A stretch of DNA of 64,000 nt from Mucispirillum schaedleri ASF457 (GTDB lineage Bacteria; Chrysiogenota; Deferribacteres; Deferribacterales; Mucispirillaceae): positions 2,229,001-2,293,000 of the forward strand of contig NZ_CP097562.1 in the NCBI RefSeq assembly GCF_000487995.2, given 5' to 3'. Position numbers and translations under genes: made by a program. Of this stretch, positions 3,101 through 48,910 are shown one piece after another; the first letter of the stretch is position 1, and every line of letters begins with the position of its first letter. Under the pieces are notes generated by a model. That model was not told the origin of the DNA and did no database searches. It saw only the letters and a program-made list of their open reading frames with translations.

Positions 3101-3970
3101 GTGCGTTTACTTGCTGTTTTATTAGTTGTATCACTTGCTGTTCATTTAGGTTTACTTGCTGTTCCTTTATCTGAAAAAAAACTGGAAAAAAAGGAAGTAA
3201 TACCAGTATCTATTGTGGACTATAAAACATTAGAGCAGAAAAAAGAACAGCCAGAAAAACAGAAGAAACCAAAGCCAAAACCTGTAGAGAAAAAGGCTGA
3301 AACAAAAAAAGATGTGAAGCAGGAGCCTAAAAAAGAAGTAAAAAAAGAAACTGCCAGTGTGGAAACTAAAAAGGCGGCAGATGCAAAACAGCAGGTAGAA
3401 AATAATAAAATACAGGAAAAACCTTTCCGTCCGCAAGGTGCAGATGACCCACTTGTGCTTCCAGATATTAATGTGCCGCTTACACCAAATAAAACTCTGC
3501 CAGAAATAGCTGTGCCTGATGTGCCAAAACCAAATATTAACAAGCAATTAGAAACAGCAGAAAACAAAAAAAATATTGATATATCAAAAGAACTTTCATC
3601 TTTAAGTGAAGCACAAAAAGAAATGCAGGTAGAAAATAGTATTGCGAGTGAAGTGCAGAAAGAAACAGTAAAGGCAGAAGATGCTGTAAAAGGTAATATT
3701 TATAATTTTGATATTGCACCAGCAGGAAACAGAAAGGTTGTTTATCTTCCGCCAGACCCTGTTTTTGCCCTTGCAAATGATACAAAAGTTACAGTCCGCT
3801 TTAATATAGATAAGGCAGGGAATACATTTAATATTATTTTTATTACACGCAGTTCCATAGATGTGGAAAAATTAGCTTCTGACTATGTAAGCCGTATGAA
3901 GTTTGATGCAATTATTGAAAACAGGGAAGATTTTGCACAAATTACAATGCAGTTTAAAGTTCAAAGATAA
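3101..3970 (+). CDS. TonB-family energy transducer
   Basis: Translation appears to begin at a GTG 3 bp after the ExbD stop. The 289-aa protein has a single N-terminal membrane anchor (residues 2-22) and a long Lys/Pro/Glu-rich periplasmic spacer (about 45-130). It ends in an alpha/beta domain of about 75 residues that starts near VVYLPPDP and contains VTVRFNIDKAGN, typical of TonB_C. TonB couples the inner-membrane proton gradient to outer-membrane receptors. The receptor served is not in the window. TolA is the alternative, but the YPP-like entry and the ID..G pattern fit TonB better. Confidence 0.85.
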   Translation: MRLLAVLLVVSLAVHLGLLAVPLSEKKLEKKEVIPVSIVDYKTLEQKKEQPEKQKKPKPKPVEKKAETKKDVKQEPKKEVKKETASVETKKAADAKQQVENNKIQEKPFRPQGADDPLVLPDINVPLTPNKTLPEIAVPDVPKPNINKQLETAENKKNIDISKELSSLSEAQKEMQVENSIASEVQKETVKAEDAVKGNIYNFDIAPAGNRKVVYLPPDPVFALANDTKVTVRFNIDKAGNTFNIIFITRSSIDVEKLASDYVSRMKFDAIIENREDFAQITMQFKVQR

Positions 3971-4029
3971 TATTCTTATTTATTTTAAGCATTATATCAA
4001 ATGTATAAATGCAAAATTATCACTTATTG

Positions 4030-18251: not shown

Positions 18252-19187
18252 ATGGGGCAAAAGTTAAAGTTTGCAGTTCGTCTTTTAGTTAGTATTTTTT
18301 TGCTTGGTATTTTAATATATATTGCAGGTCCTGCACAAATATATAAGGAATTAATAAACAGCAGACTAGATTATAATTTTGCAGGCTTCATTTTAATATT
18401 AACAGGCACTTTTGTTGCTGTATACCGCTGGTATATAATTATGAATGAGCTTGATTTTCCTAAAACTCCATTTTTATTTTATTTTAAAAGTTATTTCAGG
18501 GGTATATTTTTTAATCAGCTGCTGCCTTCATCTATTGGCGGCGATGCTGTTAAAGTAATAGATACAGCAAAACAGTTAGGATGTAAAAAACGGGAAGCAT
18601 TTGTTGGTGTATTAATAGACAGAGGGCTTGGTATTGCAGGTATTTTCCTTTTAAACCTTATTTTTAACAATATGGCACAAGGTTTTCTGCCAAAATCAAG
18701 CTATTATATATTAAATATAATATCTTTTTCTGGGACAGCAGGTTTTATTGTTTTTATGTTTTTGCATAAAATAGAATATTTAAACAGATTTAAATTTTAT
18801 CAAGTTATAAGTATTCCATCAAAAGCACTATGGACTGTTATGGCTGGTTTTAAAAAAACTTTTTTGCAGGTAATCTTGTCATTATCTATACATATATTTA
18901 CTTTTGCAGGTGTATATATGATAGCAAGGGCTTTTGGGGTGGATTTGCCGCTCTATGCTTTTATGGTAATAATGCCGCCTGTAATACTGCTTACAATTAT
19001 CCCTATTTCGCTTGCAGGCTGGGGTGTTAGAGAAGTCAGTATGGTAAGCCTTTTAAGTTATTCTGGTATTGCTCAGGAAACTGCTTTATCTATATCTATT
19101 ATTTTTGGATTTACTTATGTAATACAAGGTCTTCTTGGATTATATTTTTTTATAAACAGTAAAAAGGAGATAAATAATGAAAGTTGA
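18252..19187 (+). CDS. YbhN/AglD-like flippase-type membrane protein
   Basis: This 311-aa protein with about eight membrane helices belongs to the UPF0104 / lysylphosphatidylglycerol-synthase-TM superfamily. Landmarks are YFRGIFFNQLLPSSIGGDAV, GVLIDRGLGIAGIF and IPISLAGWGVREVSMVSL. A strong GGAGG precedes the ATG. In cell-envelope clusters such proteins are linked to lipid or polyprenyl-linked glycan movement. It overlaps the following glycosyltransferase gene by 11 bp, indicating coupled translation and a common pathway. Substrate unknown. Confidence 0.85.
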   Translation: MGQKLKFAVRLLVSIFLLGILIYIAGPAQIYKELINSRLDYNFAGFILILTGTFVAVYRWYIIMNELDFPKTPFLFYFKSYFRGIFFNQLLPSSIGGDAVKVIDTAKQLGCKKREAFVGVLIDRGLGIAGIFLLNLIFNNMAQGFLPKSSYYILNIISFSGTAGFIVFMFLHKIEYLNRFKFYQVISIPSKALWTVMAGFKKTFLQVILSLSIHIFTFAGVYMIARAFGVDLPLYAFMVIMPPVILLTIIPISLAGWGVREVSMVSLLSYSGIAQETALSISIIFGFTYVIQGLLGLYFFINSKKEINNES

Positions 19188-20382
19188 TACAATGAGATTT
19201 GTAGATAAATATTTTGGAGTGCCACTTTGTTTGATTGGCACTGCCATTTTTAAGATTTTTGGACGACCTAAAAAAAATGTTAAGCCTAAAAATATACTTT
19301 TTATAGAGCTTTCAGAAATGGGTAGTGCAATACTTGTAGACCCTGCTATGCAGAAAGCAAAAAAGGCTTTTGATGCAGACTTATTTTTCTTAATATTTAA
19401 AAAAAATAAACCATCATTACAGCTTTTAAATACGGTAGATGATAAAAATATTTTTACAATCAATGCAGATGGTATCATTTCTCTTATTAAAGATACATGG
19501 AAGTTTTTATTTTGGGCGAGAAAAAGAAAAATAGATACTTGTATAGATTTAGAATTATTTTCACGATATTCTGGTCTTTTAGCAGGTTTTGCAGGTGCAG
19601 ATAACATAGTTGCATTTAATAATTTTCATGGGGAAGGTCTTTATAAAGGCAATATGGTTACTCATAAAGTCATGTATAACAGCCATATACATATATCCAA
19701 AAATTTTATAGCTATGGTTAATGCTCTTATGTCTGATAAAAAAGAACTGCCTTATTCTAAAACGAAAATATATGACAGTGAAATAGTGCTTAGAAAAGCA
19801 GAAATAAGCGAAGAATTGAAAGAAAAGGTAGCCGCAAAGATACAAAGGATTATACCAGAATATAATGGGGGGGGGAATAAACTTATTTTAATAAACCCTA
19901 ATGCAAGCGAGCTTTTGCCACAAAGAAGGTGGGACAAGAATAAATATAAAGATTTAATAAATAGAATATTAGAAGAATATAAAGATGTGTATGTATTAAT
20001 TACTGGTGCTCCTAATGAGAAAAAGGAAGCAGAACAGCTTGCGCATCAGTGCGGGGATAGATGTTTCAGCTTTGCTGGTGCTGTAAAATTTTCAGAATTA
20101 ATTGGTTTGTATGAATTATCTAAAATTATGATAACAAATGATTCAGGTCCTGCACATTTTGCGGCAGTTACAAGTATGCCAACAATAGTTATATTTGGTC
20201 CAGAAACACCAGCATTATACAGCTCCCTTGGTAAAACAAGACCAGTATATGCTAACCTTGCATGCTCTCCGTGTGTTAGTGCTGCAAACCACAGAAAAAC
20301 TCCATGTAAAGATAATGTATGCCTGCAAATGATTACAGTTGATGAAGTATTTAATGTATTTAAGGAAGAATATAATGGATAA
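19177..20382 (+). CDS. Glycosyltransferase family 9 (heptosyltransferase-like), with a G9 tract
   Basis: This 401-aa protein has a Rossmann N-domain (KPKNILFIELSEMGSAILVD) and a C-domain with LINPNASELLPQRRWDKNKY, VLITGAPNEKKEAEQL and MITNDSGPAHFAAV. The last is the GT9 nucleotide-sugar site seen in WaaC/WaaF. It would transfer a heptose or similar sugar to LPS core. The linker between domains is encoded by nine consecutive G (Gly231-233, NGGGN), very unusual in this AT-rich sequence. Slippage there would truncate the enzyme. GGAG sits before the ATG inside the upstream gene. The next gene overlaps by 8 bp. Confidence 0.92.
   Translation: MKVDTMRFVDKYFGVPLCLIGTAIFKIFGRPKKNVKPKNILFIELSEMGSAILVDPAMQKAKKAFDADLFFLIFKKNKPSLQLLNTVDDKNIFTINADGIISLIKDTWKFLFWARKRKIDTCIDLELFSRYSGLLAGFAGADNIVAFNNFHGEGLYKGNMVTHKVMYNSHIHISKNFIAMVNALMSDKKELPYSKTKIYDSEIVLRKAEISEELKEKVAAKIQRIIPEYNGGGNKLILINPNASELLPQRRWDKNKYKDLINRILEEYKDVYVLITGAPNEKKEAEQLAHQCGDRCFSFAGAVKFSELIGLYELSKIMITNDSGPAHFAAVTSMPTIVIFGPETPALYSSLGKTRPVYANLACSPCVSAANHRKTPCKDNVCLQMITVDEVFNVFKEEYNG
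19867..19875 (+). repeat. Poly-G (G9) tract inside the GT9 gene
   Basis: Nine consecutive G encode Gly-Gly-Gly in frame. Long G runs in AT-rich genomes are classic sites of slipped-strand phase variation. Here the ON frame is present. Confidence 0.75.
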
Positions 20383-41360: not shown

Positions 41361-41400
41361 TTATGTCATATTAAGCCATAAGGCGAAATATCTAAAATGG
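41361..41400 (+). repeat. Fragment of the dispersed 228-bp repeat
   Basis: TTATGTCATATTAAGCC and AAGGCGAAATATCTAAAA match the repeat core GTCATACTGAGCC..AAGGCGAAGTATCTAAAA with substitutions. The rest of the gap (41401-41728) is AT-rich with nothing I can identify. Confidence 0.55.
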
Positions 41401-41729
41401 TAATATTATAAAATTTTTGCAAATATAAATAATTAATATTCTAGATTATTTGCTATGCTCATAATAGGCAATGGGTTGTATGGATTTATGGTAAAATTTT
41501 TTATAACCGTTTTATATTTTTCATTCATATTACATATTAAAAAAGAAATTATAATAAAACTTACATAGTTAAGCATAACTTTATGGTATTTTTTAAAAAA
41601 AAAATAATCAGTAATTATTTTCTTCAGCTAGATATTCAAAGCCTATATCTGCATATAATTTTTGTTTAATAAAAAGATTAAAATTGTCTTAATTATTGAT
41701 AATATTAAATAAAAAAAACTGCATTTATA

Positions 41730-41757
41730 TTGACAAAAGTATTATATTTGTTAAATT
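41730..41757 (+). promoter_or_regulatory. Candidate promoter of the molybdoreductase operon
   Basis: TTGACA (41730-41735) is followed 16 bp later by TAAATT. TTGAT-N4-TTAAA at 41696-41709 and TTGAT-N4-ATTTA at 41782-41795 are half-matches to an FNR box, plausible for an anaerobic reductase but weak. Confidence 0.35.
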
Positions 41758-41840
41758 TGCAGAAAAAGTGTAATTTATAAGTTGATAAAGATTTATTTTT
41801 GAGTATATTAAAGATACAAAAAAACTTGGAGGCAAAGAAG

Positions 41841-44800
41841 ATGGGAAAAGAAACTAATGTTTTAAAATCATTAGAAGAAAGCTCAGTGTCAAGACGATCC
41901 TTTTTAAAAGGCCTTGCAGCAATGGGTGCCATTGGTGCTGTGGCTGGCTGCTCTAAAGACAGCGGTTCAGAAATCATATATGGGGGGGGGAATTTAGGAA
42001 ATGTAATATCTCCCGAAGACCTTTCTAACCCAAAAATCTATTACACATCCTGCGTTCATAACTGTGGCACAGGCATTCGCTGTGTTTCAAAATTACATGT
42101 AGTAAATGGAAGAATAGTCCGAGTTACATCAGATGACAGCGATTATGCATTTGATGGAACTTATAGAAATAAAGAGCAGTATAACGATGCTCGTTCATTA
42201 ACCTGCCCTAAGGGTAGAGCTATTAAATACCGTGCTCATCATCCTGCAAAGCTTCGCTACGCTTTAAAGCAGACTAAGGGGCGGGGTGACTTATCTGGCT
42301 TTATTAGAATTCCTGTTGATGAAGCCTTAAAAGAAATTGCAACAAAATATAGAAAAACTGTTGAAAGGTATGGTCCTGGTGCAGTCCATAATATTTATGG
42401 CACATCAGGCGGTTACAGCAGTCAGGGAACTTATGCAAGTTACAGCTCTACAAGGTCTGCACTTACTCCAGCTGGAGCAAGAGGCGGCTATGGAGACTAC
42501 AGTTATTATCAATATCACTTTGGCTCAGTTATTGTAGGTCACCCAGGTTCATGTGGTGCATATACTAAATCATCAAATGTTTCATGGCAGTTTCCTGCAA
42601 TTGCAGGCGTTGTAAAAAATGTTGTTTCTTGGGGAGCAAATATTCTTACAACAGTAAACTCTGCCAGCTGGTCTTATATTAGAGCATTTGAAAAATTAAA
42701 AGAACGCGGTGGCAGAGCATGGTTTATTGGACCAGAACTTACAGATACTGGTGTTACATGCCATACTGACTGGATACAATCTCGTAACTATACAGATGTT
42801 GCATTAATTATGGGTATGCTTTATGAAATGCTTGTAAATACATTTGATTCAAATGGTGCAATAAAAAAATCATCTAAAGCATTAGATATAGATTATATAG
42901 ATACAATGGTGCATGGTTTCTTTGCATCTCCAGAATACTATGTTAATACAACTACTGGTCAAATAGTAAAAGAAAAACCAGCTGATACTACTGGTTATCG
43001 TCATATAGAAGCTGTTGAAGCAGGTAAATGTTTAGCATCATACATATTAGGTGGAAATGCAGCACTTATTGGAAACCCAAAATATAATGCAAACTCTACA
43101 AACTATACAGCAAAAAAATATCATGAATTCAGCAATAATATGCCAAGGGTTGGTAAAGTATCTTGGAAAGTAACAAAAGGTGCAGGAACTGAATATCAAT
43201 ATAAAAAAGATTTTAATGTGCCAAAAACTCCAGAATGGGCTGAAAAAATTACTGGTGTTCCAGCAGCTAAAATAAGAGAGCTTGCAAATATGTATACAGA
43301 CCCAGAACAGCACCCAATATTTAATGAATGGGCTGGCGGCACACAAAAGCAGTTAAATGGTTCTATCCAGCTTTGGGCAATTACTGCACTTATGGCTATC
43401 ACAAAAACATTTGGTTTAAGCGGTGAAACTTTTAGTGGTGCATGGGCTACTACAAACTCTCGTGGTCCAGTTGCAGATACTGATACTAATAATTACCTTG
43501 ATTTTTCATCAATTACTGTTGGTAATGCTGGAACTACTGCAAATAGTTCTAATGACTATACAGGTGAAGTATCTATTTCTGATAGGACAGTTAATAGTAT
43601 TTCATGTAAAGAATGGTTTAATGGTATTAAGATAGCTTTCAAAGACTATCTAACTCCAGAAAGAGGCTATACTGGTGAAAATATTCCAGACTGGGATATG
43701 AGTAAAAGATATTATTCAAATGACGGTGGTGTTAAATCACTTGTGATGTTTGAAAGAGATACTACAAATAAAGACCAACTTCAAACAGAAGTAATAAATG
43801 GTAAAACATACTATAAAGTAAAAAAAGATGCAAACGGTAATCCAATATTTTCAGGTATCCGTATGATATTAAATGCTGGTGGTGCAATTATGGTTAACCA
43901 GCACATGAATACAAATGATTTAACTGCAATGTATAAAGCAATACCTGCATTAAACTCACAAGAAGGAGGCGGCTATACTAATGCAGACAGCCTTTGCCTT
44001 GTAACATTTGATTTATTTATGTCACCAACTGCAAGATATATGGACTATGTATTGCCAGCAGTTTCTCAACTTGAAGCAGTAGGCAGGGAAGTATTTGGCG
44101 GTCAGTATAAAGCAATGTATAGACCACCTGTTGTAGAACCATTAGGTGATGCTCTTGACAGCTGGACAATGACTTATAAAGCATGGGTTGCTCAAAGCCA
44201 GCTTGGTGAAATAAGTTATGGTGAAAGAACTACAACAGGTATTAGTGCTGCTCCAAGTAAATATACTAATAATTCAAGCTTTAAACCTATAAGAAATTAT
44301 TTTGATGCAGAAGTGGATAAAGCAACTGCGGACCCTGCTTCAAAATACTATGGTATGACAAGAGATGAAGTTTATGGTGCACAATTTACACCTGCTAAAA
44401 ATAATGATGAATATATCTGCACTTCGTTATATGAAACAAAAGGAACAACTACAAGCTGGGCTCGTGGTGACAGCGATACATCAGAAGGTGCCCGTAACAA
44501 TATTTCACAAGTTGGTCAAATTAGAAAGAACCTTGATACATATCTTAAAGGAGATATGACAGCTCCATTTATATTTACAACGGAAAATAGTGTCCAAAAT
44601 AAATTTGATGGAAGCACATATTTAAGTGCTGCAAACAGTGAAGCTTCTTTGCTTGATACTTCTTCAAGACCAGAAATGTCTGGTAAATTCCAAATTTATA
44701 ATGGCAGAGTTCAGTGGGATTATGAACATGCTTTTGAAAAATACCATGGATGGCTGCCTGCTGAAAATCGCGGACAGGAAAATAAAGACCCAGAAGGTGA

Positions 44801-45479
44801 TTTAAAAGTTTATCCAATACCAATGTATTTTAACTTTGAAGACTGTTTCAAAGAATCTTACAATGGTTTTAAAAAGGTGGATTCTGCTACTGGTAAAGCA
44901 CAAGCTGGTCCAAATGCAGCATTTTTTGCAGGAACAGGAAGAGACAAACCTCTTACAATGAGCACAACTCATGATAGATTTAGAGTTCACTCTACCCATG
45001 ATGAAAACCCACTTTTACGAGAGCTTAACCATAGAACTATAAACGGTGGCTGGGCAAGTGGTAATGACTGGAAAGAATACTGCATAGTTCCAGAAAGACA
45101 AACAGTAAATTCTGCAGCTGCTTATGAATCACCTATGATAAGCTCTGCAATTTATAACAAAAACAGAGAAACTGCATCATGGCATGAGATATGGATAAAT
45201 ACTCAGGATGCAGCAGAACGCGGTATTACTGACGGTATGCTTTGCCGTGTAGAAAACCCTATTGGTAAAATAAGAGTTATTGCTCGTGTTACAGACCGTT
45301 GTATTCCGGGACATTTAAACCTGCACCAAGGTGGCTGGTATGACCCTAATACTGACGGAGTAGATGATGGTGGTAATGCTAATACATTAATAGCATCAAC
45401 TCCATCAAGATATGACCATGGTAACGCTCAGCAGTCTGCTTATGTTATCATTAAACCTGAAACAGAATTTAATATATAA
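41841..45479 (+). CDS. DMSO reductase-family molybdopterin oxidoreductase, catalytic subunit, Tat lipoprotein, with G9 tract
   Basis: ATG 41841 is preceded by GGAGG at 8 bp, giving 1212 aa (an in-frame codon at 41799 lacks a site). The leader holds a twin-arginine motif SRRSFLKG (R18-R19) and a lipobox AVAGC (C37), so the protein is probably Tat-exported and acylated. A 4Fe-4S cysteine cluster follows (SCVHNCGTGIRC and a later LTCPKG). The molybdopterin domain has KLHVVNGRIVRVTSDD, SWGANILTTVNSASW and the C-terminal WINTQDAAERGITDG with HQGGWYDP. Nine G at 41982-41990 encode Gly48-50 right after the leader, so slippage would switch the enzyme off. The terminal acceptor (DMSO, TMAO, nitrate, selenate or other) cannot be told from sequence. 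Confidence 0.9.
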   Translation: MGKETNVLKSLEESSVSRRSFLKGLAAMGAIGAVAGCSKDSGSEIIYGGGNLGNVISPEDLSNPKIYYTSCVHNCGTGIRCVSKLHVVNGRIVRVTSDDSDYAFDGTYRNKEQYNDARSLTCPKGRAIKYRAHHPAKLRYALKQTKGRGDLSGFIRIPVDEALKEIATKYRKTVERYGPGAVHNIYGTSGGYSSQGTYASYSSTRSALTPAGARGGYGDYSYYQYHFGSVIVGHPGSCGAYTKSSNVSWQFPAIAGVVKNVVSWGANILTTVNSASWSYIRAFEKLKERGGRAWFIGPELTDTGVTCHTDWIQSRNYTDVALIMGMLYEMLVNTFDSNGAIKKSSKALDIDYIDTMVHGFFASPEYYVNTTTGQIVKEKPADTTGYRHIEAVEAGKCLASYILGGNAALIGNPKYNANSTNYTAKKYHEFSNNMPRVGKVSWKVTKGAGTEYQYKKDFNVPKTPEWAEKITGVPAAKIRELANMYTDPEQHPIFNEWAGGTQKQLNGSIQLWAITALMAITKTFGLSGETFSGAWATTNSRGPVADTDTNNYLDFSSITVGNAGTTANSSNDYTGEVSISDRTVNSISCKEWFNGIKIAFKDYLTPERGYTGENIPDWDMSKRYYSNDGGVKSLVMFERDTTNKDQLQTEVINGKTYYKVKKDANGNPIFSGIRMILNAGGAIMVNQHMNTNDLTAMYKAIPALNSQEGGGYTNADSLCLVTFDLFMSPTARYMDYVLPAVSQLEAVGREVFGGQYKAMYRPPVVEPLGDALDSWTMTYKAWVAQSQLGEISYGERTTTGISAAPSKYTNNSSFKPIRNYFDAEVDKATADPASKYYGMTRDEVYGAQFTPAKNNDEYICTSLYETKGTTTSWARGDSDTSEGARNNISQVGQIRKNLDTYLKGDMTAPFIFTTENSVQNKFDGSTYLSAANSEASLLDTSSRPEMSGKFQIYNGRVQWDYEHAFEKYHGWLPAENRGQENKDPEGDLKVYPIPMYFNFEDCFKESYNGFKKVDSATGKAQAGPNAAFFAGTGRDKPLTMSTTHDRFRVHSTHDENPLLRELNHRTINGGWASGNDWKEYCIVPERQTVNSAAAYESPMISSAIYNKNRETASWHEIWINTQDAAERGITDGMLCRVENPIGKIRVIARVTDRCIPGHLNLHQGGWYDPNTDGVDDGGNANTLIASTPSRYDHGNAQQSAYVIIKPETEFNI
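41982..41990 (+). repeat. Poly-G (G9) tract inside the molybdoreductase gene
   Basis: Nine consecutive G encode Gly-Gly-Gly in frame immediately after the export leader. It is the same length and coding as the tract in the GT9 gene at 19867. Confidence 0.75.
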
Positions 45480-45490
45480 AGGATACGATT

Positions 45491-46126
45491 ATGGCTATAG
45501 AAAAAATACAATATGCTTTTTATTTTGACCAAACAAGATGTATGTCATGTAATTCCTGCACAGTAGCATGTAAAGACTGGAATCAAGTAGAGCCGGGACC
45601 TGTTGCATGGCGTAAACAGTTTACTTATGAAAAAGATGGTGGATTTTTCCCATTATCTATGGGCTGCAATCACTGTGAAGAGCCTGCATGTAAAAATGTA
45701 TGTCCATATAATGCTATCATTAAAACAGATGATGGTATTGTATATGTTAACAGGGACTTATGTCAGGGAGCATTAAGCTGTATTTCTGCATGTCCATTTG
45801 CAAAACCACAAATAGCTTTAGATAAACAAGAGCCAAACGCATTTGAAAGCTGGAAAGTTCAACACCCTATGCAGAAATGTGATATGTGTAAAGAAAGACT
45901 TGATAAAGGTGAAAAACCAGCATGTGTTGCAAGCTGTGTAGGAAGAGCATTAGATTTTGGCACAAAAGATTATATATTAAGCACATATCGTAGTGCTGTT
46001 CAGCTTAATTATAGTGATTTCCCTTATGCTTATGTAAATAATACTAATGATACTAAGCCATCTTTCTATGTAAAGAAAAAAACATCAATTAGTGTAACAA
46101 AAGCATCAAGCAATTATGTAAAATAA
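45491..46126 (+). CDS. DmsB-type four-cluster ferredoxin subunit
   Basis: This 211-aa iron-sulfur protein has four cysteine groups: CMSCNSCTVACKDW, CNHCEEPACKNVCP, CQGALSCISACPF and CDMCKERLDKGEKPACVASC. They bind four 4Fe-4S clusters, as in DmsB. There is no signal peptide, so it would be exported with the Tat-borne catalytic subunit. It carries electrons to the molybdenum site. It starts 11 bp after the catalytic gene. No DmsC/NrfD membrane anchor is encoded in the cluster. Confidence 0.94.
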   Translation: MAIEKIQYAFYFDQTRCMSCNSCTVACKDWNQVEPGPVAWRKQFTYEKDGGFFPLSMGCNHCEEPACKNVCPYNAIIKTDDGIVYVNRDLCQGALSCISACPFAKPQIALDKQEPNAFESWKVQHPMQKCDMCKERLDKGEKPACVASCVGRALDFGTKDYILSTYRSAVQLNYSDFPYAYVNNTNDTKPSFYVKKKTSISVTKASSNYVK

Positions 46127-46150: not shown

Positions 46151-46169
46151 AGTGAAAAGGTATAAAATA

Positions 46170-46856
46170 ATGGAAAGCTCTTTAAAAAGTGAAATTCATT
46201 CGGCAAGAGGCAGTGTTTATTTATTTTTAAGAAACTGTTTGTATGATATGCCAAATGAAACATTTTATAAAATGATAGAAGATATGTTGTCTCAGTTAAG
46301 TCAGGTTGTAAATGGAAGTGAAAATAAAGATATGAAAAATGGCTATAATGGGATGCTTAACTTTATAAATACAATAAATAGTATATCTGGAAAAGAGTTA
46401 GATGAATTAAATCTGCATATCAGCAGAGAATATACATCATGCTTATGTTTACCAGGAACTGCACAGCAGGAAGAATCCTATTATATTTCTGAGGACCATA
46501 TATTAAAACAAGAGTCAAATGATGATATGATTAAACTGTTCCATAAATATGGATTTTCAATATCAGCAGAATTGCAGGCGGATTATGATAATGTTTGCAT
46601 AGAGCTGGCATTTATGAGCAAACTTGCATATATGAGTGCAGATACAGAAAATAAAGATGAATACTATAATCTAATATTAGAGCAGTTAAATTTTCATAAA
46701 AATCACTTTGATAAATGGATATACCATTTTTATGATAAATTAATAGGGCAAAAGATAATAGAAAGCAAATTATACAGATATATTGCTGAATTTTCCAAAG
46801 GTTTTATACGAGAAGATAAACTGCTGCTTGAAGACTTAAACAGCAGCAATAACTAA
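46170..46856 (+). CDS. TorD/DmsD-family molybdoenzyme maturation chaperone
   Basis: ATG 46170 has AAAAGG 9 bp upstream, whereas the GTG at 46152 abuts the hairpin and has no site. The 228-aa, mostly helical protein has the TorD-like pattern LNLHISREYTSCLCLPGTAQ (loop with Pro-Gly), EESYYISEDHILKQES and the later AELQADYDNVCIELAFMSKL. Such chaperones bind the Tat leader until the molybdenum cofactor is inserted. Its place inside the reductase operon supports service to the 41841 product. Confidence 0.85.
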   Translation: MESSLKSEIHSARGSVYLFLRNCLYDMPNETFYKMIEDMLSQLSQVVNGSENKDMKNGYNGMLNFINTINSISGKELDELNLHISREYTSCLCLPGTAQQEESYYISEDHILKQESNDDMIKLFHKYGFSISAELQADYDNVCIELAFMSKLAYMSADTENKDEYYNLILEQLNFHKNHFDKWIYHFYDKLIGQKIIESKLYRYIAEFSKGFIREDKLLLEDLNSSNN

Positions 46857-46873
46857 TTAAGGAGCCAATGCCT

Positions 46874-48409
46874 ATGAAACGGCTGATGTTAAATACATTA
46901 TGTATGTTAGCTTTTGTGTTCCCAGCATATTCCTATGTTGGCGATTCTTATGTAACCCCAGACAGCTGGAGCAGACATGTGAATGCCAATGGTATCAAAG
47001 CAAGCCTTAATGGTCTCAGCTTTGGAGATACAGGCATATTAAAAATAGGGTTAACAACAAGAGCTGCATTTAAATTTGGAGAAGATGAAGACTGGTCAAT
47101 TTATCAGTATGCCCGTCTGAGATTAAGTGAAACGAAACTAGGTCAAGGCACAGTGAATGTAAACTTAAATATTCGTGGAGCTTATGACAGTCTTCCAGAT
47201 ATTGGTGGCAGCACAATGGACGGCCAGTCATCAATCTATTCAGGAAGTTCATATAACCAGTTTTATGACGGCTTATATACTTCCCGCAAATATGATGAAT
47301 ATACCCGCTTAAATGGTAAATATGATGGTAATTTTAGAATATATCAGGCTAATGTAGAGTTTAAAGGAGTAGTGCCGTATACAGATATAACAGCAGGCAG
47401 AATATATTTAAACAATCTAGATATGTATAAAATAGACGGCGGCAGTTTCCATTTTGATACCTGTGACTATTTTAAGCTTGATATATACGGCGGTCTGCCT
47501 GTCAGCTATTACAGCAATTTAAAAACATCTTTAATAGGAGCAGCGATAGAAGTTCCAGTAACGATAAGCGGCACAAAAATCAGAGCCGAGTATAACTACT
47601 TTATACATGAAGATGGCGGAGACTTTAACACCCATACTGCCAGAGGCAGAATAGACCAGAGCTTATCCTTTCCCGATATAATATCATCCAATATCTATCT
47701 GGAAGGCGCCATAATAGGTAAAGCTATGCTTTATGAAGCAGGTCTGGATGCGAATATAGATATAAGCCGCACAGGCATATCAGCCTACATAGCAGGTCAG
47801 TATGATAAGAATAAAGGCGATATAAACCCGTATATATCCATGTATGAAAATATGTTAGGCGGCAGCAGTGAATATGTAATGGGCGGAGTAATGGTTACAC
47901 AGGGAATAACTGACTATTTAATATTAGGAATAGGCTGGGAAACACGATTTAATTTCAGTGAAAGCTATGGCGACAGAGACTACCAGAGAGTATTCGGCAA
48001 TATAGACCTTGTGGGTTTACTCCATAAAAACAATTATTTAAGTTTAATAGTAGACTGGTATGATGTAGCAGCATATAAGAGACAGGACAGCAATTCTAAA
48101 GTAATGGGAGGTTTTCGTATAACTCAGGTATTTACAGAGAGACTAGAAGCATGGGCAGGAGTAAATGTTCAGAACTATCAGTATAGAAACAGCCCAATAA
48201 AATCCTACCCGCAGTATGGAGAAGATATGGTTAGTTTACAAGACAGAAATGAAAATACCACAATGGCATATATTGGAGCGATGTATCGCCCAATAGACTG
48301 GTGTGTGTTACAGGTTGATTATAGTTATGAATATGCAGACCTTTTTAAAAGTGCTGACTTACAGCCAGATATTCATACATTAAGTATCTGGGCAAACTTT
48401 ATCTGGTAG
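46874..48409 (+). CDS. Outer-membrane beta-barrel protein of the reductase operon
   Basis: ATG 46874 (GGAG at 9 bp) is preferred over 46868. The 511-aa protein has a signal peptide ending AYS. Alternating hydrophobic/aromatic strands then run throughout, ending in a C-terminal tryptophan (LSIWANFIW) as BAM-assembled barrels do. About 20 strands can be counted loosely. It is directly followed by a multiheme cytochrome gene. By analogy with DmsF/MtrB in Shewanella extracellular DMSO respiration it could be the sheath of an electron conduit. It could also be an unrelated porin. No sequence signature of MtrB is recognisable by eye. Confidence 0.7.
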   Translation: MKRLMLNTLCMLAFVFPAYSYVGDSYVTPDSWSRHVNANGIKASLNGLSFGDTGILKIGLTTRAAFKFGEDEDWSIYQYARLRLSETKLGQGTVNVNLNIRGAYDSLPDIGGSTMDGQSSIYSGSSYNQFYDGLYTSRKYDEYTRLNGKYDGNFRIYQANVEFKGVVPYTDITAGRIYLNNLDMYKIDGGSFHFDTCDYFKLDIYGGLPVSYYSNLKTSLIGAAIEVPVTISGTKIRAEYNYFIHEDGGDFNTHTARGRIDQSLSFPDIISSNIYLEGAIIGKAMLYEAGLDANIDISRTGISAYIAGQYDKNKGDINPYISMYENMLGGSSEYVMGGVMVTQGITDYLILGIGWETRFNFSESYGDRDYQRVFGNIDLVGLLHKNNYLSLIVDWYDVAAYKRQDSNSKVMGGFRITQVFTERLEAWAGVNVQNYQYRNSPIKSYPQYGEDMVSLQDRNENTTMAYIGAMYRPIDWCVLQVDYSYEYADLFKSADLQPDIHTLSIWANFIW

Positions 48410-48418
48410 GTGCATAAT

Positions 48419-48910
48419 ATGAAAAAGAATTTATTACTAATCATCTTATTATTTCTTCTTACAGCAGGTGTAACATCAGCAGTAGATTCCACTAAGCCGT
48501 CTACCCATAACAGCAGCTGGGAGCAGAAGCATGGTCAGGCAGCCAAAACTAATATGAGCGAATGCATAATGTGCCATGAAGAACGAGTAGAATGTATATC
48601 CTGTCATGAAGATACTGCTCCAAGAAACCATACAGTAACCTTTGTGAATAAAACACACGGGTTAGAATCCAGATGGAACAGAACAACATGTCAGACATGT
48701 CATAAAGAAGATTTCTGTGACAGCTGTCATGAGACATCCTATCCAATGAGCCATGCCCGAGCAGGATTTGTATCAGGAGCAGGCTCCCACTGTGGCACAA
48801 GCTGTGTAGTTCCCGTAGGCAGCTGGAATAACACCCCATCTAAAAACTGTCTTGTATGTCACAAAACAAGACCTGTAACAAAATCAGGTGCTCTGCATAC
48901 TGTGAAGTAA
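48419..48910 (+). CDS. Periplasmic pentaheme c-type cytochrome
   Basis: ATG 48419 with TAGG 8 bp upstream gives 163 aa. A signal peptide (cleavage near TSA) is followed by five CXXCH haem sites: CIMCH, CISCH, CQTCH, CDSCH and CLVCH. A further CGTSC pair lacks the histidine. Several distal histidines (HGQ, NHT, HGL, SHAR, LHT) could be sixth ligands. It would carry electrons between a quinol dehydrogenase and the reductase, taking the place of a DmsC-type anchor. Whether five haems suffice to cross the outer membrane with the barrel is open. Confidence 0.92.
   Translation: MKKNLLLIILLFLLTAGVTSAVDSTKPSTHNSSWEQKHGQAAKTNMSECIMCHEERVECISCHEDTAPRNHTVTFVNKTHGLESRWNRTTCQTCHKEDFCDSCHETSYPMSHARAGFVSGAGSHCGTSCVVPVGSWNNTPSKNCLVCHKTRPVTKSGALHTVK

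Follow-up and report, generated by a model that had tools for sequence, protein, structure and literature searches.

A nine-G tract as the probable switch of a reductase gene in a family of constant-variable-constant operons of Mucispirillum

Phase variation is mostly associated with surface antigens and restriction systems. In the 64-kb stretch of the Mucispirillum schaedleri genome analyzed here (the window), a run of exactly nine Gs at 41982–41990 follows the export leader of a respiratory molybdoenzyme, raising the question of whether a terminal reductase may be turned on and off by the same means. We find it probable, with good confidence, that the tract switches a phase-variable gene belonging to a family of constant-variable-constant reductase operons. 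Enzymes of energy metabolism would then appear to be switched like surface antigens in a gut bacterium that lives in mucus and whose available electron acceptors change with inflammation.

The tract and its operon

Both the count and the position of the nine Gs behind the leader, as given in the initial annotation, were reproduced. The tract makes up codons 48–50 (Gly48–Gly50) of the open reading frame 41841–45479, which encodes 1,212 amino acids counted from the ATG, and it adjoins the 3′ end of the Tat-lipoprotein leader MGKETNVLKSLEESSVSRRSFLKGLAAMGAIGAVAGCSKDSGSEIIY. The claim that any slip truncates the subunit agreed with the computed translation: a tract of G8 leads to a stop after 51 amino acids and one of G10 to a stop after 62, and a change by one unit would abolish the product of the window gene. 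As the sequence contains no in-frame start for 273 codons past the tract, the OFF state would lose the Fe–S and Mo-binding parts; leaderless translation of the window gene in that state was ruled out on the same ground.

The tract had also been called unlikely by chance, and the counts bear this out. Given the base composition, Markov models predict 0.01–0.03 nine-base runs of G or C for the window, in which we found two, and 0.3–0.9 for the whole single-contig 2.35-Mb genome, in which 43 runs of length at least nine are present. Run lengths within the window are non-monotonic, with three G5, no G6–G8, and two G9. The tract is far beyond chance, yet it belongs to a class found throughout the genome. 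Rfam gave no matches within the window at gathering scores. The operon consists of the following parts:

41374–41990, + strand: constant 5′ module with promoter region, leader, and tract (DNA alignment to other operons)
41841–41981, + strand: constant leader with the Tat motif SRRSFLK (aa 17–23) and a lipobox of VAG followed by C37 (paralogue comparison)
41841–45479, + strand: DmsA/YnfE-like molybdoenzyme catalytic subunit, ON (in frame) at G9 (Pfam, NCBIfam)
41982–41990, + strand: G9 tract, the proposed switch and the junction of constant leader and variable body (sequence, comparison with paralogues)
42051–42206, + strand: Cys71, Cys75, Cys81, and Cys122, probable [4Fe-4S] ligands just 3′ of the tract (analogy with DmsA)
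42501–42503, + strand: Ser221 (GDYS), aligned with the Mo-ligand region of the DMSO reductase 1eu1
45491–46126, + strand: DmsB-like Fe–S subunit, variable part (Pfam/NCBIfam profiles)
46152–46856, + strand: TorD/DmsD-type chaperone, variable part (Pfam/NCBIfam profiles)
46868–48409, + strand: outer-membrane beta-barrel, constant part (DNA alignment, predicted fold)
48410–48910, + strand: pentaheme c-type cytochrome, constant part, with five CxxCH (motif count)

The earlier identification of a respiratory molybdoenzyme held, as Pfam and NCBIfam profiles assign the body to the DmsA/YnfE molybdoenzyme family. The molybdopterin and dinucleotide-binding domains (PF00384 and PF01568) scored above their cut-offs, while the DmsA/YnfE subfamily model TIGR02166 gave 256 bits against a curated cut-off of 777.7; judged by its sequence, the protein is a divergent DmsA/YnfE relative, and a score of 256 bits does not assign a substrate. 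DMSO and TMAO reductases with solved structures can be aligned to the body, and the GDYS serine falls at a position that we take to be the Mo ligand in the DMSO reductase family. By analogy with DmsA, the four cysteines listed above probably bind a [4Fe-4S] cluster.

For the location of the enzyme, we considered the lipobox, the lack of a DmsC-type anchor in the window operon, and the operon content. The barrel gene encodes a 513-aa protein predicted to form a beta-barrel of ~22 strands (AlphaFold, mean pLDDT 68), and its structural matches are outer-membrane barrels in general (best VIA-align match with Z 19.3, rmsd 3.8, and 353 aligned). In Shewanella, the DmsEFAB operon joins a DmsA molybdoenzyme, a DmsB Fe–S subunit, an outer-membrane protein, and a c-type cytochrome (PMC11302344). 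The Mucispirillum operon has the same four component types, the set expected of an extracellular reductase, including the outer-membrane barrel and multiheme cytochrome that characterize a DmsEFAB-type system. It differs in gene order, in a cytochrome carrying five hemes in 166 aa, in being multicopy, and in the tract within the catalytic gene. Furthermore, the Mucispirillum barrel has no match in Pfam, and there is no MtrB-type barrel among the 50 fold matches listed, an absence that does not count as evidence. By this analogy, the product is likely a terminal reductase anchored at the cell surface and supplied by a shared barrel–cytochrome conduit. Against a surface location, the lipobox of several paralogues reads MYGC and is not canonical.

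Reading frames, orthologue states, and selection

The window gene belongs to one of four paralogous operons in the genome. When relatives were searched with the protein, near-identical leaders were found on several paralogues, with the frames of leader and body split exactly at the tract; across the tract genes of the genus, the constant leader is ~60–95% identical. In total, we found 38 leader-plus-tract genes in Mucispirillaceae (22, 11, and 5, the last five from genome G002; one relative alone has 11), all with tracts of G8, G9, or G10. Thirteen were in frame and 25 out of frame, a share of 34% versus the 33% expected under random phase, whereas related leader-bearing molybdoenzymes lacking the tract were in frame in 26 of 26 cases. 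Fisher's test on this difference gave P = 2.6e-8, a value that serves only as a guide, since genes from one family and from related species are partly dependent observations. The comparison genomes are mostly metagenome bins. A scan of contigs with the leader gave matches in uncultured Mucispirillum bins and Candidatus Mucispirillum faecigallinarum, with no sister strain of the window genome among them, and viral contigs searched with the leader contained no copy.

Homopolymers are the commonest error type of long-read assemblies, and the out-of-frame tracts could be sequencing or assembly artefacts, with the true tracts all in frame. The contigs of G002 break at the repeats, which fits this explanation. 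Against it, out-of-frame tracts are present in several independent assemblies, including NODE-named ones of the short-read type; their share equals the two thirds expected by random phase; many other tracts of the window genome are in frame; and the bases beside the tract also differ among orthologues from different assemblies. We therefore regard assembly error as quite unlikely.

The states of orthologous genes gave a more detailed picture. In the window orthologue group, the gene is ON at G9 in the window genome (G000) and in G008 and OFF in G002, G004, and G011. The G002 copy has G9 with one A fewer after the tract, such that G10 would restore the frame, while the G004 copy has G8 and would be restored by G9; the OFF orthologues of the ON window gene include ones that are 91 and 88% identical to it. 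In the group of the operon at C1:1014k, the gene is OFF at G9 in G000, G003, G004, and G011 and ON at G10 in G009, in agreement with the frame arithmetic for that group. In some orthologue groups, all members were seen OFF. The tract is thus not fixed at nine between species, where lengths of 8, 9, and 10 occur; this variation in length and frame is established between species, not strains.

These offsets bear on the possibility that programmed ribosomal or transcriptional slippage yields the full protein at any tract length and there is no genetic switch. Constant low-level frameshifting would also explain purifying selection on OFF bodies (see below). The offset, however, differs among orthologues (+1, –1, or none), whereas a programmed signal should keep one; as it is not conserved, programmed frameshifting is disfavored and we consider it highly improbable.

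Three of the four copies in the window genome are out of frame, as would be seen if the OFF genes were ordinary decaying pseudogenes and the window gene the sole working copy. Yet the bodies of ~860–1,200 codons are open in all full-length OFF copies, the tract is the only frame break, and orthologues of the OFF genes are ON in other genomes. Pairs of OFF/OFF orthologues show dN/dS of 0.13–0.32 over ~1,000 codons, and such purifying selection implies that the OFF genes are in use at some time. With this, decay of the OFF copies is barely credible.

Tract, frames, orthologue differences, and selection come directly from the sequences, and we infer switching within a strain from them. Phase variation of the catalytic subunit, as first proposed, gained cross-species support from the frames, the orthologue states, and the purifying selection; taken together, the sequences strongly support phase variation by tract slippage.

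Constant ends and variable cores

All four operons share the gene order dmsA-dmsB-chaperone-barrel-pentaheme cytochrome. Their 5′ DNA similarity covers the promoter region and the leader and ends at 41990 of the window in three of three comparisons; the identity of the 5′ module is 82.5% to the operon at C1:1, 87.8% to that at C1:1014k (from 41333), and 86% to that at C1:1070k (from 41823). The tracts of these three operons lie at C1:608, C1:1014143, and C1:1070453, respectively. The 3′ module of ~2.0 kb, consisting of the barrel and the cytochrome, matches its counterparts in the other operons at 98.7–99.2% identity, and the window barrel gene on its own is 97–99.5% identical in DNA to the other three. 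Between these constant ends, the paralogous operons differ strongly: identities are ~34–41% for the A subunit, 46–64% for the B subunit, and 24–32% for the chaperone. This layout, like the barrel fold, was taken from the sequences themselves.

The two kinds of parts have contrasting histories. Barrel copies from the same genome share 97.1–99.8% identity and those from different genomes at most 92.6%, a pattern that we read as the mark of concerted evolution. The A bodies show the opposite pattern: orthologues in other species (up to 97%) resemble them more closely than do paralogues from their own genome. In the slot behind a PstS-like gene, G003, G004, and G009 each carry a different module, the three being non-orthologous, and EF-P lies downstream of the slot in G003 and G004. 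In the slot behind oxaloacetate-decarboxylase-like genes, G003 and G004 have the same module type and G000 has a different one. The neighboring genes, whose names at both slots are our own reading of the sequences, show cassette exchange at conserved slots between species.

With such a layout, the tract might be mainly a recombination junction at which whole variable modules are exchanged between constant ends, slippage being secondary. The 5′ similarity stopping exactly at the tract, the homogenized 3′ module, and the species-specific non-orthologous modules at the PstS/EF-P and oxaloacetate-decarboxylase slots are in line with this. Exchange alone nevertheless leaves the G8/G9/G10 frame differences within orthologue groups unexplained, and as the exchange was detected by comparing species, it may be very rare within a strain. 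We consider it unlikely that recombination is the main role of the tract.

Under the preferred reading of the tract as a slippage switch, the loss or gain of one base at replication would join or separate the frames of the constant Tat-lipoprotein leader and the variable catalytic body. Each operon would be ON or OFF independently and heritably, and in OFF cells, translation would stop a few codons past the leader. Slippage would change which reductase the cell displays, and recombination between the constant ends, a slower process, would do so as well. In its broadest form, to which we give an even chance, the model is a respiration variation system resembling antigenic variation: constant-variable-constant reductase cassettes would occupy fixed slots, the G tract at the constant/variable boundary of each would switch it independently of the others, and recombination between the homogenized ends would now and then exchange cassettes, with the population displaying many combinations of surface reductases.

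Metabolic bet-hedging is one possible benefit. As the enzyme looks like a surface-exposed lipoprotein, escape from immunity, phages, or competitors may be another, and the locus makes it testable whether respiration is switched at random for bet-hedging or reductases are varied because of their surface exposure. If the model is true, annotation and activity tests of single clones understate what the species can respire.

The open-access literature searched contained nothing direct on phase-variable respiratory reductases and no joint report of Mucispirillum and reductase phase variation, in keeping with the suggestion that such variation of a terminal reductase is rarely reported. Respiration-related precedents are thin, with a MenA gene carrying a G tract in a Campylobacter list; a review of phase variation does not mention reductases or respiration, and glpK of Mycobacterium tuberculosis provides a metabolic precedent (PMC11868660). 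Loy et al. (2017) described an uncharacterized DMSO-reductase-like system of M. schaedleri that is up-regulated in inflammation and 32–36% identical to DMSO, tetrathionate, and TMAO reductases, making no mention of phase, homopolymers, or frameshifts (PMC5285517); that system possibly belongs to the tract-bearing family.

The imperfect inverted repeat AAGATTAAAATTGTCTT at 41674–41690 of the window is found upstream of nearly all aligned reductase paralogues and is possibly a regulator site common to them. At L084:3241–4761, a fifth barrel paralogue (58% identical) has an in-frame G9 of its own (3967–3975); the genes behind it encode a pentaheme cytochrome and a lipoprotein carrying two CxxCH, with no reductase.

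The wider set of tracts

Reading the stretches around each tract, we found 49 tracts of length at least eight in the genome (6 G8, 33 G9, 8 G10, and 2 G11), with a peak at nine. The genes affected encode glycosyltransferases, MBOAT acyltransferases, sulfatase-domain proteins, PKD and Big_2 surface proteins, a type I restriction specificity protein, sensors, and an M66 peptidase. The contingency loci of Campylobacter, Helicobacter, and Neisseria have G tracts of ~8–11 in coding regions or promoter spacers, number many per genome, and target glycosyltransferase, surface, and restriction genes (PMC6321876, PMC2823697, PMC3234257). Mucispirillum resembles them in its mononucleotide tracts, many loci, and target classes and differs in that the set includes respiratory reductases; the picture is that of a contingency-locus-rich genome. 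Loss of MutS as the cause of the long tracts was ruled out by a full-length gene with an open frame of 859 codons, and the intact MutS may keep switching rates moderate.

Nine-G matches number 16–55 per Mucispirillum genome, except for two in one 57%-complete bin, and 0–9 in most other Deferribacterales, with exceptions in families f1 and f4. Outside Mucispirillaceae, genomes G043 and G024 from another family of the same order have 417 and 53 matches, some of the runs much longer than nine, and possibly represent a further contingency-locus-rich lineage or an assembly artefact.

Several individual tracts stand out. The second G9 of the window (19867–19875) lies in frame in a GT9 (heptosyltransferase-like) gene at 19177–20382 on the + strand, a candidate phase-variable LPS gene. 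Poly-C tracts (C8–C11) are placed between TTGACA and TATAAT-like boxes with a spacing of 14–17 bp, and these are candidate promoters whose strength would change with tract length:

L067:4033–4042, promoter-spacer poly-C tract
L077:3954–3962, promoter-spacer poly-C tract
L079:4055–4063, promoter-spacer poly-C tract
L085:12567–12575, promoter-spacer poly-C tract
L088:4010–4019, promoter-spacer poly-C tract
L089:3999–4006, promoter-spacer poly-C tract
L091:4026–4036, promoter-spacer poly-C tract
L092:3977–3985, promoter-spacer poly-C tract

A similar TTGACA-C10-TATTTT element at L090:13994–14003 lies ~170 bp upstream of uvrB. The HsdS (type I restriction specificity) gene at L064:3365–4563 is split at a G8 tract (3946–3953), making the locus a candidate phase-variable restriction-modification system, and a VgrG-like type VI secretion gene begins just past a G9 tract at L096:4026–4034.
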